Source: Nitrospirota bacterium
GTDB taxonomy: Bacteria; Nitrospinota_A; UBA7883; JACRGQ01
DNA: 12,606 nucleotides
Assembly: GCA_024275955.1 (NCBI GenBank)
Contig: JAJRYD010000002.1
Span: forward strand, 1 to 12,606
Direction: 5' to 3'
Under the pieces are notes generated by a model. It was not told the DNA's origin, searched no databases, and saw only the letters and a list, made by a program, of their open reading frames with translations. Made by a program: the position numbers and the translations under genes. Of this stretch, positions 4,784-12,606 are shown one piece after another (the stretch's first letter is position 1; every line of letters starts with the position of its first letter).

Positions 4784-5269
4784 TTAAGGGCCGGTTTTTG
4801 TTTCGTGGAACTCTTTGTACTTGATCTTTGATTTCTCAAGCGAGAATGTTTTTACAAGTACAAGAGTGAAAAAAACAGAAAAATTGGGGAAAGCTCTTCC
4901 GAGCAAAGCTGTAGGTTTAGCGATAAACGGATACACACCACCGTTGGTTTTGCCTAGAAAGGTAAAGCGATACCCTTTGAAATAGTTTTGCAATGGTTAA
5001 ACCTTACAAGCCTCTAACATCTGCACCCACCTTACAGCCAATACCAAAAGCACCAAAAAGGGTAACGTTTAGCGAATCACAATGTTTTTTAGTGTATATT
5101 CCGTCATTACAACCAATATCCAGTAATTTTCTATTATCTTTGATTTTCTTAGTAGCGACATTTTTTTTGCTAACAAAATAAGATTTTCAATGTTTTTATT
5201 GTAGACAGAAACCTTTATTTTCCATTTAAGGTTCTGTAGCGTTTCCTTGAGGCTCATTGACGGCGGCAT
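4784..5269 (-). pseudogene. Decayed class I SAM-dependent methyltransferase
   Basis: A minus-strand gene in pieces. The N-terminal part begins MPPSMSLKETLQNLKWK, and the ATG at 5257 (MSLKETL) is better spaced from a GAAGGA site than the one at 5269. It reads to LILLAKK and meets a run of eight A (plus-strand T run 5161-5168). Moving one frame there continues as NVATKKIKDNRKLLDIGCNDGIYTKK (written LLDIGCNDG for motif I), the glycine-rich SAM-binding loop. This second frame stops soon after, near 5040. A C-terminal-like piece (4784-4993) contains YRFTFLGKTNGGVYPF and ALLGRAFPNFSVFFTLVLVKTF. The middle of the enzyme is missing, so this is more than one frameshift. The likely original role was modification of a sugar or lipid in the same surface-polysaccharide context as the next gene. 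Confidence 0.6.
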
Positions 5270-5445
5270 CCTTCACAAAATTTACTCAACACTTTTCACA
5301 GCTATCTATGGCATTGTACTGTAATTAACAGAACAAGGAAGTTGTTAATTTTTGCGTAAGTAACACCGCTGAAAATATGGAACCGCTCTAGTGAAAAAGC
5401 GATACAAGCTGTTCCATGCTGTTGGTGATGCCCGGCAAGGCCGAA

Positions 5446-5968: not shown

Positions 5969-6088
5969 GCGACAGCTTGCTGTTTTTAGCGATTCTACAG
6001 GATGCTAAGCCTCCTTTGACAGTCAAAAATCATATTTTAATTCATCACAGCATCATTTTAGGTTTGATAAACGATTTTGGTGATTCTT

Positions 6089-6097
6089 TGATATAAT
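6089..6097 (+). promoter_or_regulatory. Extended -10 promoter of the gspG-like gene
   Basis: TGATATAAT is a perfect extended -10 (TGn plus TATAAT). No good -35 sits at the usual distance, as is common for this promoter class. Transcription would start near 6104, about 8 bases before the ATG, so the mRNA would have almost no leader and no Shine-Dalgarno. Confidence 0.5.
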
Positions 6098-6111
6098 CTT
6101 TCCCTATAAAG

Positions 6112-6534
6112 ATGAAGTGGAACAAAAACAGGCAAAATACCAAAATCAACCTAAAAGGCGGGTTTACCCTGATAGAGATCCTCGTCGTGATGGTGATTAT
6201 AGGCCTTTTGGCCGGTCTTGTAGGGCCTAAGCTTTTCAAGCATGTAGATTCCGCCAAGCAAAAAGATGCCAAAGCCCAAATCTCTATGCTAGAGGGAGCG
6301 CTCGACCTATACCGCTTGGAAAAGCACCACTACCCTACCACCGAGGAAGGACTTAAATCGCTTAAAGAATATCTTAAAAAAGAGCTTCCAAGCGACCCGT
6401 GGGGCAACCCTTACATATACAAGATGCCGGGTGGCGATGGACGCGAATACGAAATTATAAGCCAAGGGGCAGACGGCAGTGCCGGAGGCGATGGGAACAA
6501 TGCCGATATTTACAGCTGGAAAGGGCTCAACTGA
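6112..6534 (+). CDS. gspG: Type II secretion major pseudopilin GspG-like protein
   Basis: 140 residues. A basic leader (MKWNKNRQNTKINLKGG) ends at a prepilin peptidase site, with cleavage expected between Gly17 and Phe18. FTLIEILVVMVIIGLLAG follows, with the conserved Glu at mature position 5. The C-terminal part has the GspG layout: YRLEKHHYPTTEEGL, the SDPWGNPYIY motif (94-103), and the calcium-loop-like region GADGSAGGDG (119-128) with NADI. In type II systems GspG is the main subunit of the periplasmic pseudopilus that drives folded proteins out through the secretin. No other gsp gene is in this window, so the gene is isolated here and may serve a system encoded elsewhere. The start has no Shine-Dalgarno but is the only ATG before the processing site, and a promoter lies just upstream. 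Confidence 0.93.
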   Translation: MKWNKNRQNTKINLKGGFTLIEILVVMVIIGLLAGLVGPKLFKHVDSAKQKDAKAQISMLEGALDLYRLEKHHYPTTEEGLKSLKEYLKKELPSDPWGNPYIYKMPGGDGREYEIISQGADGSAGGDGNNADIYSWKGLN

Positions 6535-6680
6535 TATCTTCCCACCCTTGCCGGCTAGGCGTTTTAAAAGCTTTTTACTTTACCTGCTCTATGGAGTAGT
6601 ATTCGATTGCTTTCATAGTCTTAGACATTGGGCGTTGTAACTTTCTTTAGTATTGGCATTTTTATAGTACATTTTCAAAA

Positions 6681-8531
6681 ATGAAGTTTCATCTGTTAAA
6701 AGTTTTTAGCGCAGTCGTGCTTGTCGCTTTCGCCGCTGTTTCTGCCGGAGCGGAAAATCTATCCGGCGGCTCTCCCTTGCAGTCTGTTCCTTCCGGCTCT
6801 TCTTTGGGCGCTTCCGTCTTCAAGTCTCTCTCGTCAGAAGATATAACAGACATAGAACCTGCTGATGCCTCGATAATACTTTCAAGCACCAAGTTCGAAG
6901 CGGGAAAAAGCTATCCCGTAATTTTAAAAATTGATATTAACGGCAAGTACCATATAAACTCCAACCAGCCGGCCAACCCTTCGCTAATACCTACAAATGT
7001 AACATTTACCGTTTCCGATGAATCGGTTACGATAGGACGCGTCATCTACCCAAAGCCGGAACTAAAGAAATTTAGTTTTTCAAAAGAGAAGCTTTCTGTT
7101 TATGAAGGAGCAGTTCTTATCCAGACGTCGCTTACCTTCAACGAGGTGTTTTCGGACAGTCTGGAGCTTAAAGCTGTTTTCGACTATCAGGCATGCACAG
7201 ACACAATATGCCTTTTGCCGAAACAGGTAGAGCTAAAAGCAAAACTTATAATCGGCACTGGCGGTGAAGCTATAAACGACGAAATTTTCGCGCAGGCGAA
7301 AACCGACAGCGCGCAAAGCTCTCCCTTCGAATCGGCAAGCGGTTTTGGGCTTGTGCTTCTTGTCTTTTTAGGCGGACTCGCACTTAACCTCACCCCTTGC
7401 ATCTACCCTATAATACCTGTCACTGTCGGCTTCTTTGGTTCTGCTTCTGGAAGGTCTAGGGGCCAGACGGTTTCGCACGCGGCAGTCTACATACTCGGCA
7501 TGGCGGTCATGTATTCGGCGCTTGGCACGGTAGCGGCCCTCACCGGCTCATTTTTTGGCGAGCTTACGCAAAGCAGTTTTGTCATACTGCTTCTGGTCGG
7601 CATCATGCTGGCGCTTTCCCTTTCGATGTTCGGTTTTTATGATATCAAGGTTCCTGTCGCTCTTTTACAGCTAAGCTCCAAATCGTTCAGCGGACTTTTT
7701 GGCACTTTTTTTATGGGCATTACGGTAGGCATTATCGCCGCGCCCTGCATAGGCCCTTTTGTTGTCGGGCTACTTACCTTTGTCGGCGAAAGGCAGGACC
7801 CGCTTCTCGGTTTTGTCCTTTTCTTTGTGCTTTCGATAGGCCTTGGCATACCGCTACTTTTCCTCGCGGTTTTCAGCGGAGGGATACAAAACCTGCCGAA
7901 AGCTGGAATATGGATGGAATGGGTTCGGAAAGTTTTTGGAGTGGTACTGCTAGGGATGGCTCTTTACTTCGCCTCCCCGCTTATACCGCCCGACATGCAG
8001 GGGACTCTTATCTTTCTGCTTGCTCTTGGAGGCGCGGCATACCTTATAAGGGCCGGTAGCGGCATAGCAGGCGGCATGGTTTTTAAAATTCTCAGAACCG
8101 CTATACCGCTCGCGATAATAGGCATAGCGATACTGTTTACTTTAATGGAGTCGAAGCAAAAGGAGGGGCTTCATTTTACGGAATATTCAAAACCGTTTTT
8201 CGAACAATCTATCGCAAGCGGAAAACCGACAATCTTTTATTTCACCGCCGACTGGTGCGTACCATGCCGAGAGCTTAAAATTTTTACTTTCACCGATAAA
8301 AAGGTTTTGGCAATGGCTGGAAGTTTTACCGCGATAAAGGCAGACTACACCAGAGTAGACAAAAAGAAAGATTTCCTTAAAAAAGAGTTTGGCGTGAAAG
8401 GTGTGCCTACCGTTATCTTCTTTGATAAAAATGGAAACGAGAAAACCCGCTTTACAGGTTTTGTAAACGCCGACGAATTTTTAAAACATCTCGCTTTAGT
8501 CGGTCTCTCGCCAGCTATAGGCGTTGAGTAG
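6681..8531 (+). CDS. dsbD: Thiol:disulfide interchange protein DsbD
   Basis: Inner-membrane reductant carrier that passes electrons from cytoplasmic thioredoxin to periplasmic Dsb and cytochrome c maturation partners. The 616 residues show all three DsbD parts: signal peptide (1 to about 24) and a periplasmic N-terminal domain with the cysteine pair ACTDTIC (Cys172 and Cys177); a multi-helix membrane domain (about 222-487) with the two redox prolines-cysteines LNLTPCIYP (Cys240) and IAAPCIGP (Cys356); and a C-terminal thioredoxin domain with WCVPC (Cys526 and Cys529) and the cis-Pro loop GVPT (Pro576). The N-terminal pair is C-x4-C rather than the C-x5-C of E. coli. No Shine-Dalgarno is evident before the ATG at 6681, but the signal peptide supports that start. 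A terminator follows the stop, so the gene is probably transcribed alone. Confidence 0.95.
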   Translation: MKFHLLKVFSAVVLVAFAAVSAGAENLSGGSPLQSVPSGSSLGASVFKSLSSEDITDIEPADASIILSSTKFEAGKSYPVILKIDINGKYHINSNQPANPSLIPTNVTFTVSDESVTIGRVIYPKPELKKFSFSKEKLSVYEGAVLIQTSLTFNEVFSDSLELKAVFDYQACTDTICLLPKQVELKAKLIIGTGGEAINDEIFAQAKTDSAQSSPFESASGFGLVLLVFLGGLALNLTPCIYPIIPVTVGFFGSASGRSRGQTVSHAAVYILGMAVMYSALGTVAALTGSFFGELTQSSFVILLLVGIMLALSLSMFGFYDIKVPVALLQLSSKSFSGLFGTFFMGITVGIIAAPCIGPFVVGLLTFVGERQDPLLGFVLFFVLSIGLGIPLLFLAVFSGGIQNLPKAGIWMEWVRKVFGVVLLGMALYFASPLIPPDMQGTLIFLLALGGAAYLIRAGSGIAGGMVFKILRTAIPLAIIGIAILFTLMESKQKEGLHFTEYSKPFFEQSIASGKPTIFYFTADWCVPCRELKIFTFTDKKVLAMAGSFTAIKADYTRVDKKKDFLKKEFGVKGVPTVIFFDKNGNEKTRFTGFVNADEFLKHLALVGLSPAIGVE

Positions 8532-9684: not shown

Positions 9685-10480
9685 CTTAGTAAGCATAATC
9701 AGCGTAATTTACTAATTCATACTACTTAGTCGTCCCTGATAAAGTTGTTTCATGCTACAAATAAAGGTGAATATCGGTTTTTAACCCTTTGGAAATCGCA
9801 AGAAAAATGAAGAAGTAATGAAAAAGATGGTTATTTAACTTAAGGTTATTTACAAAAACCTCCTCCTTAGCGAAGCGGAAGGAGGGGTCGCCCGAAGGGC
9901 GGGGGGGGGCTTATTAGTAACCCTTCCGGCGTTCGACAGGCTTGCGCTGCCTTCCCTTTTTAAAAAGGGAAAGATTTTTATAATCGTTTAAACAATAAAC
10001 AACTTTTTCAGGTTCGACTAATGTAATTCATTTTGGCATACTCGCACGTGTCCCGCCTATCTTAAAATTTAATCAAAGACGATGGAAACTTCTGATTTGT
10101 TGAAAGTAGGTTGGAATCTCGTTTTGCTCGCCATGCCTCAATAATATTCTGCTATGGGGAGTCTGACAACCCCCTTTATGACTTAAGTTTGCAGCCTATA
10201 AAATCAATTAGTTATAAAATCTATGTATTTAGCACCCCCCTTGGTTACAAGCAATGGGGGGCTTGGGAGTCGCAAAGGCGGTGGGACTGGCGCTCCATCC
10301 GCCTTTTTGCTCCTACCCTCACGCCACGCCATCGCCTCCAACCTCCGGCGGTGCAGTCGCTACGGCATCGTTTGTCGGCTTAGGCGTAAATCTTTTCCAG
10401 CAATCAGCGAACTTCCAAGCCTCCAAGATATAGAAAAAAATAGTTGTAATATTCGGGGGGGCGGGTAATATCTTTCTTAG
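9685..10480. other. Hairpin-rich intergenic DNA upstream of the DGR
   Basis: About 800 bases with no gene I can support. Contents: a GGTTATTTA direct pair (about 9824 and 9844); stems CCTCCTT/AAGGAGG (9862-9885) and CGCCC/GGGCG (9889-9901); a run of nine G (9901-9909); a 20-base perfect palindrome (9952-9971); a C6/G6 stem (10235-10261); and an imperfect long stem with AAAGGCGG (10274-10281) pairing with CCGCCTTT (10299-10306). Short open frames here have neither ribosome binding sites nor protein-like composition. Confidence 0.6.
9952..9971. repeat. Perfect 20-base palindrome
   Basis: TTCCCTTTTTAAAAAGGGAA is fully self-complementary. It may be a bidirectional terminator-like element or part of a repeat; there is no gene immediately beside it. 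Confidence 0.6.
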
Positions 10481-10531: not shown

Positions 10532-11407
10532 ATGCAAAAGTATGGTTTTAAATATCTGGCGGTAATGCTGTTCGTTTCTATGTTTGCGCTATCTGCCTGC
10601 GGTAGTGGCGGCGGGTCAAGTTCATCAACGGCTGATACGACAGCCCCCACAACAACAGTAAGCCCAGCTGGTGGTACATACAGCAGTTCCCAAACGGTTA
10701 CCCTTACTGCTAGTGAAACGGCAACCATCTACTACACGACAGACGGCACTACGCCTACAACAGCTTCAACCGTTTACTCAAGCGCTATCAGCATTACAGC
10801 AGGCGCTACGCTTAAATGTTTTGCGGTGGATAGCGCTGGCAATAGCGGAAGCGTGCAAACTGATACATATGTTATAAGCGTGATGAAAGTCCCTGATACA
10901 GGGCAAACCACTTCTTACACAGCTACTTTTGGGGAGGATAGCGATTACACAATCAATGTCCCCTCCTATACCGACAATAGCGACTATACGATAACAGATA
11001 ATGTAACAGGTTTAATGTGGCAGAAGTGCAGCGTGGGACAGACTAACGATGCCTCATGCAGTGGTACAGCAACTACCTACAACTGGTACGAAGCGACAGG
11101 CACGGCAGATGCAACTTACAACGCAGGCGGTGCAACAGATGTATGCGGTTCACTGTCGCTTGCCGGCAATACAGATTGGAGACTGCCAAATCCGTTTGAA
11201 CTTATGCTAATTGTCGACAATGAAATATATAATCCTTCAATAAACAGTACATATTTTCCTGCTACCGTTTCGTCGTACTATTGGTCGGCTACTACCGGTG
11301 CAGGCAATACTTCCGATGCGTGGGGTGTGTATTTCGGCAATGGTTACGTCGGCTACGGCAATGGGGCAAGCCCCAGCTATGTCCGGTGCGTTCGTCTCGG
11401 ACAGTGA
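10532..11407 (+). CDS. DGR target: variable lipoprotein with chitobiase-like and Lcl (DUF1566) domains
   Basis: 291 residues. The signal peptide ends in the lipobox LSAC (Cys23), so the mature protein is lipid-anchored; Gly24 rather than Asp after the cysteine favours outer-membrane sorting. A Ser/Gly linker leads to a domain like the C-terminal domain of chitobiase (about 37-115: APTTTVSPAGGTYSSSQTVT, IYYTTDGTTPTT, FAVDSAGNSG). The C-terminal Lcl/DUF1566 domain (about 119-291) has DNVTGLMWQKC, DWRLPNPFEL and SSYYWSATT, ending YVRCVRLGQ. The last 46 codons are the variable region: 17 codons differ from the template repeat, mostly Asn in the template becoming Gly, Tyr, Ser, Asp or Pro. The domain is a C-type-lectin-like fold used by known DGR targets to display a variable surface. 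The start has AAAGGGGG 7 bases upstream. The partner bound is unknown. Confidence 0.92.
   Translation: MQKYGFKYLAVMLFVSMFALSACGSGGGSSSSTADTTAPTTTVSPAGGTYSSSQTVTLTASETATIYYTTDGTTPTTASTVYSSAISITAGATLKCFAVDSAGNSGSVQTDTYVISVMKVPDTGQTTSYTATFGEDSDYTINVPSYTDNSDYTITDNVTGLMWQKCSVGQTNDASCSGTATTYNWYEATGTADATYNAGGATDVCGSLSLAGNTDWRLPNPFELMLIVDNEIYNPSINSTYFPATVSSYYWSATTGAGNTSDAWGVYFGNGYVGYGNGASPSYVRCVRLGQ
11266..11407 (+). repeat. DGR variable region (VR)
   Basis: Ends exactly at the target stop codon. It aligns without gaps to 11971-12112 at an offset of 705 bases. Within 11268-11407 there are 25 differences, all where the template has A: 18 to G, 4 to T, 3 to C. Two more A differences sit at the extreme left edge (11266-11267). 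All 92 non-A positions are identical. The conserved 3' end (about 11378-11401) would be the initiation-of-mutagenic-homing segment. Confidence 0.95.
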
Positions 11408-11456
11408 GTCGGTTATTTGATTATTTGGTTTTTTCGGAAATTTTTTTTGGAATTTG

Positions 11457-11828
11457 ATGGCATATTATGAAAACTTACCGATATATAAAAAAGCATTTGA
11501 GCTTATTGTTTGTGTTGAAAACGCTGTCCGTAATTTTTCCAGATACCATAAATATTCTATCGGCACAGATATGAGGCATTTATCAAGAAATCTTGTTTTT
11601 CTAATAATACAAGCTAATTCAAGGCAAGAAAAAGTTTGCTTGCTTACGGAGTTGAGGGATAGGAGTGAAGAGATGAAAATAATGGTAATGGTTGGAAAGG
11701 AGATAAAGGCATTTAATAGTTTTAAGCAGTTTGAAAATGTGGCAAATCTTGCCGTAGAAATTAGTAAACAGAGCGAGGGGTGGCTTGGAAGCCAGCGTAA
11801 GCAACAGCCGGAATTGCCAAATGTGTAA
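11457..11828 (+). CDS. avd: Avd-type accessory protein of the DGR
   Basis: 123 residues from the ATG at 11457 (a TTG lies one codon earlier). All-helical four-helix-bundle protein of the Avd / 23S-rRNA-intervening-sequence family. In studied DGRs it forms a basic pentamer that binds the RT and the template RNA and is needed for cDNA synthesis. Family features seen: the start MAYYENLPIYKKAFELIV, then RNFSRYHKYSIGTDMR and the LSRNLVFLIIQANS helix, and LTELRDRSEEMKIMV, with an Arg/Lys-rich surface throughout. Only a weak TTGGAA precedes the start. It sits 49 bases after the target gene and 142 bases before the template repeat, the usual DGR order. No rRNA is nearby, so an rRNA-intervening role is unlikely. 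Confidence 0.9.
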   Translation: MAYYENLPIYKKAFELIVCVENAVRNFSRYHKYSIGTDMRHLSRNLVFLIIQANSRQEKVCLLTELRDRSEEMKIMVMVGKEIKAFNSFKQFENVANLAVEISKQSEGWLGSQRKQQPELPNV

Positions 11829-11857
11829 AGCAGCGGCAAGCGAGCCAAAGATCACTG

Positions 11858-11955
11858 TGCGCCTGCCCCGCCATGTTTGTGCTTTTGCGCCTGCATGGCA
11901 TTATCATTCGTTAAGTCGTACCGCTAAGGATCGGTTTATCGTGGCAATATTTGCC
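11858..11955 (+). ncRNA. Structured 5' segment of the DGR template RNA (putative)
   Basis: Between avd and the TR. GCCATG (11870-11875) pairs with CATGGC (11894-11899). Inside it GTGC (11879-11882) pairs with GCGC (11887-11890, one G-U) around TTTT, with 3-base internal loops on each side. A second hairpin, GGCAA-TAT-TTGCC, lies at 11943-11955. TGCGCCTGC is repeated at 11858-11866 and 11886-11894. In known DGRs the RNA upstream of the TR binds Avd/RT; that this segment does so is inferred. Confidence 0.4.
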
Positions 11956-11970
11956 GTAAAGTGGGCGGGT

Positions 11971-12112
11971 AATTTCGTCGAACTATTGGTCGGCTACTAC
12001 CAATGCAAACAATACTTCCAATGCGTGGAATGTGAATTTCAACAATGGTAACGTCAACAACAACAATAAGACAAACAACAACTATGTCCGGTGCGTTCGT
12101 CTCGGAAAGTGA
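11971..12112 (+). repeat. DGR template repeat (TR)
   Basis: The non-varying donor copy, rich in AAC/AAT codons when read in the frame of the target gene (the VR-frame translation contains runs such as NNNNKTNNN). It is copied into A-mutated cDNA that replaces the VR. About 48 adenines lie in the 140-base core by hand count, of which 25 are changed in the present VR. Its 3' end overlaps the predicted start of the RT gene. Confidence 0.95.
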
Positions 12113-12503
12113 TTATAGCGGTCTGTTTTCTTTTGCTTCTCTTTTTGACGCATACATGGCGTGCAGAAAGAGAAAACGGAATACGACCAATGCGTTGAGG
12201 TTTGAAATTAATGTTCTCGACAACATTTTTTCTCTTAGCGATGAGCTTATTAAAGGCGAGTACAAGCCATCCCGCTCTGTCTGCTTTGTAACCGGCAAGC
12301 CGAAACTAAGAGAAATATTTGCCGCAGATTTTAGAGATAGGGTTGTACACCATCTCCTCGTTTCAAAGATGGAGGAGGTGTATGAGCCTAAATTTATATA
12401 CGATTCCTATGCCTGCAGAAAAGAGAAGGGAACCCACGCCGCTGTCAGCCGGTTAAAATATTTTATGGAAATTGTCCTAAAGTTAGTTGAAATTAAGGTA
12501 TGA
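12084..12503 (+). CDS. DGR reverse transcriptase, truncated N-terminal fragment
   Basis: Retron/group-II-intron-like RT that copies the template RNA with errors at A. From the ATG at 12084 the 139 residues contain SFASLFDAYMACRKRKR, LIKGEYKPSR, PKLREIFAADFRDRVVHHLL (73-92) and FIYDSYACRKEKGTHAAV (104-121), which cover the first RT motifs. Full DGR RTs are over twice this length. The catalytic YxDD motif and the late LGxxxSQ-type motif are absent. After Met128 the sequence no longer looks like RT and stops 11 codons on, in what appears to be inserted DNA. No Shine-Dalgarno is seen. An earlier in-frame ATG at 12045 would translate the template repeat itself (MVTSTTTIRQ) and is less likely. As it stands the protein should be inactive. 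Confidence 0.8.
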   Translation: MSGAFVSESDYSGLFSFASLFDAYMACRKRKRNTTNALRFEINVLDNIFSLSDELIKGEYKPSRSVCFVTGKPKLREIFAADFRDRVVHHLLVSKMEEVYEPKFIYDSYACRKEKGTHAAVSRLKYFMEIVLKLVEIKV

Positions 12504-12555
12504 CCTCACCTGCTAAGATATGTTTGAGAAAGAACAAAAAATAGCAAGGAGGTCA
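12501..12555 (+). promoter_or_regulatory. Inverted repeat that can mask the next gene's ribosome binding site
   Basis: TGACCTC (12501-12507) is the exact reverse complement of GAGGTCA (12549-12555), which contains the GGAGGT ribosome binding site of the gene at 12558. Transcripts running in from the RT gene would carry both arms; a transcript started inside the 41-base loop would not. Confidence 0.45.
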
Positions 12556-12557
12556 AC

Positions 12558-12606
12558 ATGGACAGAGTAAACGGAAAGAAGATTGATGGCAATAGTAGAA
12601 TTGAAA
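12558..12606 (+). CDS. Start of an unidentified gene (runs off the right edge)
   Basis: ATG with AAGGAGGT ending 4 bases upstream, a strong ribosome binding site. The 16 visible residues are MDRVNGKKIDGNSRIE, too few to identify. The position inside the broken RT gene suggests a transposase or related gene of an inserted element, but nothing in the residues confirms it. Confidence 0.5.
   Translation, partial: MDRVNGKKIDGNSRIE

Follow-up and report, generated by a model that had tools for sequence, protein, structure and literature searches.

Whether a diversity-generating retroelement (DGR) with a flawless record of adenine-specific variation can still diversify its target is the question raised by contig C8. 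The window is this whole contig of 12,606 bases, which ends inside an insertion sequence (IS) repeat and belongs to a 2.45 Mb source assembly of 56 contigs (98.4% complete). The preliminary description had placed the target gene, avd, the template repeat (TR) and the reverse transcriptase (RT) in that order. The order was correct, but the RT was present as its 5' start only. The features were as follows:

10532 to 11407, plus strand: DGR target gene encoding a 291-aa lipoprotein (lipobox LSAC read from the sequence; Pfam domains)
11268 to 11407, plus strand: variable repeat (VR), aligned to the TR without gaps and ending at the stop codon
11457 to 11828, plus strand: avd accessory gene, about 123 aa (Pfam bAvd, PHROG Avd)
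11973 to 12112, plus strand: TR, rich in AAC/AAT, with 48 adenines
12084 to 12467, plus strand: 5' remnant of the DGR RT gene, about 128 codons (profile and homologue matches), with native sequence stopping at 12467
12468 to 12606, plus strand: left end of a multi-copy IS; the same 139 bp occur at several other contig ends, and the element runs off the contig

The VR (11268-11407) and the TR (11973-12112) were realigned computationally, and the numbers given earlier were reproduced. The 140 bases aligned with zero gaps, all 25 differences fell on TR adenines (18 A>G, 4 A>T and 3 A>C), and the non-adenine positions were identical in 92 of 92 cases (31 C, 27 G and 34 T). The similarity reached 11266 if two additional mismatches at TR adenines were counted. 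The changes were found mostly in AAC and AAT codons, with 15 at the first codon position, 10 at the second and none at the third. When the assembly was searched with the first 83 TR/VR bases, allowing at most 3 mismatches at non-adenine positions, no additional copy appeared, and no other undecayed VR was found there.

The lean towards A-to-G, for which the same count of 18/25 was obtained as before, deviated from equal thirds with a p of 1e-4. Ten VRs of relatives showed the order G > T > C as well (100:59:11), and for the BPP-1 RT in E. coli dC accounted for 59% of the misinsertions opposite adenine (PMC12875486). Because the relatives and the BPP-1 RT behave alike, the lean needs no special explanation and was ruled out as a novelty. 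We infer, by analogy with what was measured for the BPP-1 RT, that the excess arises because the RT prefers to insert dC where the template has an adenine.

The target gene encodes a CHB_HEX_C_1/Fn3-associated domain (PF13290, 6.8e-23) and a C-terminal Lcl_C domain (PF07603, 8.8e-34), which we take to be the former DUF1566. The VR occupies the 3' end of the Lcl_C gene up to the stop codon, and translating the TR yields the end of such a domain. DUF1566 is often targeted by DGRs and reportedly has a C-type-lectin fold (PMC4159848, PMC6642488). An AlphaFold model of the variable domain built from three sequences had a mean pLDDT of 44, too low to confirm this fold, and no viral relatives of the target were found. 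The avd product matched bAvd above the cut-off (PF22296, 1.7e-11), DivGenRetAVD of NCBIfam below the family cut-off (5.9e-9) and the PHROG 'Avd protein of DGR' (1.2e-18). RNA folding of the spacer between avd and the TR, together with the TR itself, scored no better than shuffles (z 0.03), no strong hairpin was found directly 3' of the VR, and a tRNA was the only Rfam family matched in the window. The VR/TR pattern, the match to bAvd and the homology of the RT stub to the BPP-1 RT together give good support to the earlier claim of a DGR with adenine-specific mutagenic retrohoming.

Two other genes in the genome resemble the target:

C29:30867-31691 (L183): Lcl_C paralogue, a 434-codon gene with two Lcl_C domains and VR-like ends
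C24:34654-34947 (L184): Lcl_C paralogue, a pseudogene with frameshifts and an insert and with a VR-like end

Their existence would fit an ordinary gene duplication in which the differences between VR and TR arose by chance or selection and not as DGR output. This reading is barely credible, since the chance of 25 random differences all landing on the 48 adenines among 140 bases is about 1e-14, and since avd and a DGR-type RT start adjoin the repeats. The same layout was also present in a Candidatus Lambdaproteobacteria RIFOXYD2 DGR (MFNF01000042.1, here L043), where two VRs differed from the TR at adenines only (21/21 and 20/20). The three VR-like stretches of C29 and C24 differed from the TR of the window at 43-51% of the adenine sites and at 13-20% of the other sites, with additional indels, and the adenine bias was significant in each (Fisher p 0.002, 0.0006 and 2e-5). 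In the C24 paralogue the 3' end of the VR and the downstream flank were almost unchanged. From their sequences, the two genes may once have been DGR targets and drifted afterwards, or else the positions are naturally variable loops for which no DGR is needed.

A complete RT, as implied by the preliminary description, was not confirmed. The open reading frame up to 12503 consists of 128 native RT codons (from the ATG at 12084 to 12467) followed by the left end of the IS, which contains the stop. The stub matched TIGR04416 (group II-like/DGR RTs) below the cut-off (1.3e-8), PHROG 1423 (4.6e-41) and the DGR RT of Bordetella phage BPP-1 (8ub7; 1.8e-14), and these matches covered only the N-terminal third of these RTs. 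In an alignment with 12 homologues, the stub broke off shortly upstream of the aspartate of motif A (DIxxFF), a residue that hardly varies among the 12, and so it lacks this motif, YxDD and all later ones. At its other end, the RT frame overlaps the 3' end of the TR, and the nearest in-frame ATG upstream of the conserved part (12084) lies inside the TR, as does the corresponding ATG (5980) of L043 in its own TR. It is possible that the RT instead starts at a later non-ATG codon, CTG here and GTG in L043.

The remainder of the RT was not found in the assembly. RVT_1 gave zero matches in the genome, TIGR04416 at E-values up to 10 found the stub only, and a profile built on the catalytic half of the RT, which detected RTs in three control genomes, gave no match in the genome. 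No convincing RT match was found in the 400-base contig ends. The intact and possibly active cassette that had been implied was thus unsupported, and because the RT lacks everything from motif A onward and none was found elsewhere in the genome, we class the locus, as judged from its sequence, as a disrupted DGR and not a complete one.

The sequence that interrupts the RT has the hallmarks of an IS end, with an imperfect terminal inverted repeat (GAAATTGTCCTAAAGTTAGTTGAAATTAAGGTATGACC) followed by the start of a transposase-like open reading frame (MDRVNGKKIDGNSRIE). Position 12468, the base after RT codon 128, is the first base of the repeat (left end GAAATTGTCCTAAAG). This left end was found in nine other places with unrelated flanks. 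Compared with the copies at other contig ends, 12468-12606 was 98-100% identical, and several copies were identical over the 139 bp. By reading both ends of every contig, ten left and eleven right IS ends were tallied. Five left/right pairs carried exact 8-bp target duplications (ACTCCTTC, CTTGATAT, CCGCATTT, ATCAATGA and GCTGGTTT), and therefore the repeat is, on sequence evidence, a real mobile element. Only about 42 N-terminal residues of its transposase were assembled, a Transposase_mut search of the genome for the IS body gave no match, and the body of the repeat seems to be absent from the assembly. At least eight different repeat families cap contigs of this genome, which seems rich in insertion sequences. 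Upstream of the DGR, a stretch of about 120 bp (window 9727-9849) matched the contig ends of C6 and C22 at about 90% and looks like a small mobile element or IS remnant.

The contig stops 139 bases past the junction, inside a repeat, and the VR/TR pair has not decayed at non-adenine sites. Both observations would also fit an intact and active DGR, whose RT is whole in most cells, the IS junction then being a minority allele or an artefact of assembly. We regard this as unlikely. The junction coincides exactly with the IS terminus that nine other copies have, the five copies with proper 8-bp duplications show that such joins in this assembly are real, and the missing RT remainder was not recovered from the assembly. 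If some cells carried an intact allele, the contig would also be likely to break at 12467.

We therefore consider it very probable that the window holds a bacterial DGR caught shortly after the loss of its RT through an IS, one that worked until recently and is probably dead in the assembly. In the working state, the RT together with Avd would have reverse-transcribed the TR RNA, making errors at its adenines, and the resulting cDNA would have taken the place of the VR, which forms the 3' end of the surface-lipoprotein gene, a mechanism taken from BPP-1 and other DGRs. Judging by the VR/TR pattern, about 20 residues of the C-type-lectin-like Lcl_C domain would have varied. The pattern itself was presumably made by RT/Avd mutagenic retrohoming before the IS arrived. 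The IS then landed after RT codon 128, and as the sequence shows, every catalytic motif was thereby removed or separated. The VR is probably frozen in its last state now, because there is no other RT in the assembly. The agreement at 92/92 non-adenine sites limits the divergence since the last homing to about 3% (95%). This agreement and the near identity of the IS end across copies suggest that the insertion was recent, without fixing a date.

A simple insertion is one way in which the RT could have been lost; in another, IS copies recombined with each other and everything downstream was deleted. The left end on C8, with the flank ATTTTATG, had no partner carrying the duplicate among the eleven right ends. 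Five left and six right ends were unpaired altogether, which suggests rearrangements, and the rest of the RT is missing. The same would be seen with a short contig left unbinned, however, and given a recent loss through the IS we hold such a deletion to be quite possible but not the favoured course. It refines the preferred explanation, a DGR that lost its RT through an IS, and does not contest the main claim. Under that explanation the missing part of the RT has either been deleted, possibly when IS copies recombined, or sits on a contig that was dropped for its shortness, and in both cases the assembled genome lacks a whole RT gene. On such a dropped contig the rest of the RT could survive, parted from the stub by the IS but not lost. 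The gene might be repaired if the IS were excised precisely, and part of the population may carry an intact RT allele.

The locus is an ordinary DGR caught during its loss with the cause visible and not a new kind of DGR. A perfect VR/TR signature is thus no evidence of a currently working DGR. The loss is bracketed, since the cassette broke too late for any non-adenine difference to accumulate, and it provides a concrete case of a DGR core vanishing while the target genes stay, of which earlier surveys saw mainly the end state. A more speculative idea, which we consider quite improbable, is that IS capture locks in a favourable variant, with lineages repeatedly losing the DGR engine while keeping the chosen target allele and older copies such as those on C29 and C24.

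The nearest RTs to the stub came from a Lambdaproteobacteria MAG (65% identity) and a Brocadiaceae MAG (61%), and the identity within the same taxonomic family was 40%. MutS-like DGR accessory proteins are known. The Lambdaproteobacteria DGR, L043, resembles that of C8 in the RT (the 65% match), an A-rich TR of about 140 bases that encodes the same C-terminus, Lcl_C targets, bAvd and a candidate RT start codon inside the TR. In contrast to C8, L043 has a complete RT of 509 aa (5980-7509) with YMDD and a C-terminal MutS_I domain (PF01624), two target genes and an extra short MutS_I open reading frame (4963-5280) before avd. In the Brocadiaceae relative (L044), a MutS_I open reading frame follows the RT (661-1787). 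The frame of this RT changes inside the conserved GLPMGI / NLTSQFFANVYLNELDQF region and leaves it in two parts, possibly a second broken RT of this group, or a sequencing error. As far as the sequences tell, the patchy distribution of related RTs is in line with sporadic transfer, as has been proposed for DGRs (PMC8144416).

The DGR of Bordetella phage BPP-1 (mtd-avd-TR-brt; RT structures 8ub7-8ube) shares with C8 the gene order, the adenine-specific VR/TR differences, the Avd family and the RT homology. Its target is a phage tail gene, whereas that of C8 is an Lcl_C gene that is apparently chromosomal and of the host, and only the C8 RT is truncated by an IS. Loss of the DGR core with kept targets is already known from cyanobacteria (PMC7517822) and Treponema denticola (PMC4891356). 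The cyanobacterial remnants lie near transposases, and there either the RT survives without the other parts or the target stands alone. They are like C8 in their degraded DGR parts, the transposases nearby and the remote paralogues with residual TR-VR similarity, but at C8 the IS lies inside the RT gene. Some strains of T. denticola carry target genes without RT and TR, and truncated or over-mutated 'suspicious' targets were described that resemble the copies on C24 and C29, so that targets outlive a lost DGR core there as well. Unlike T. denticola, C8 keeps the TR, avd and the start of the RT, and therefore the loss has been caught at an earlier point with its cause visible.
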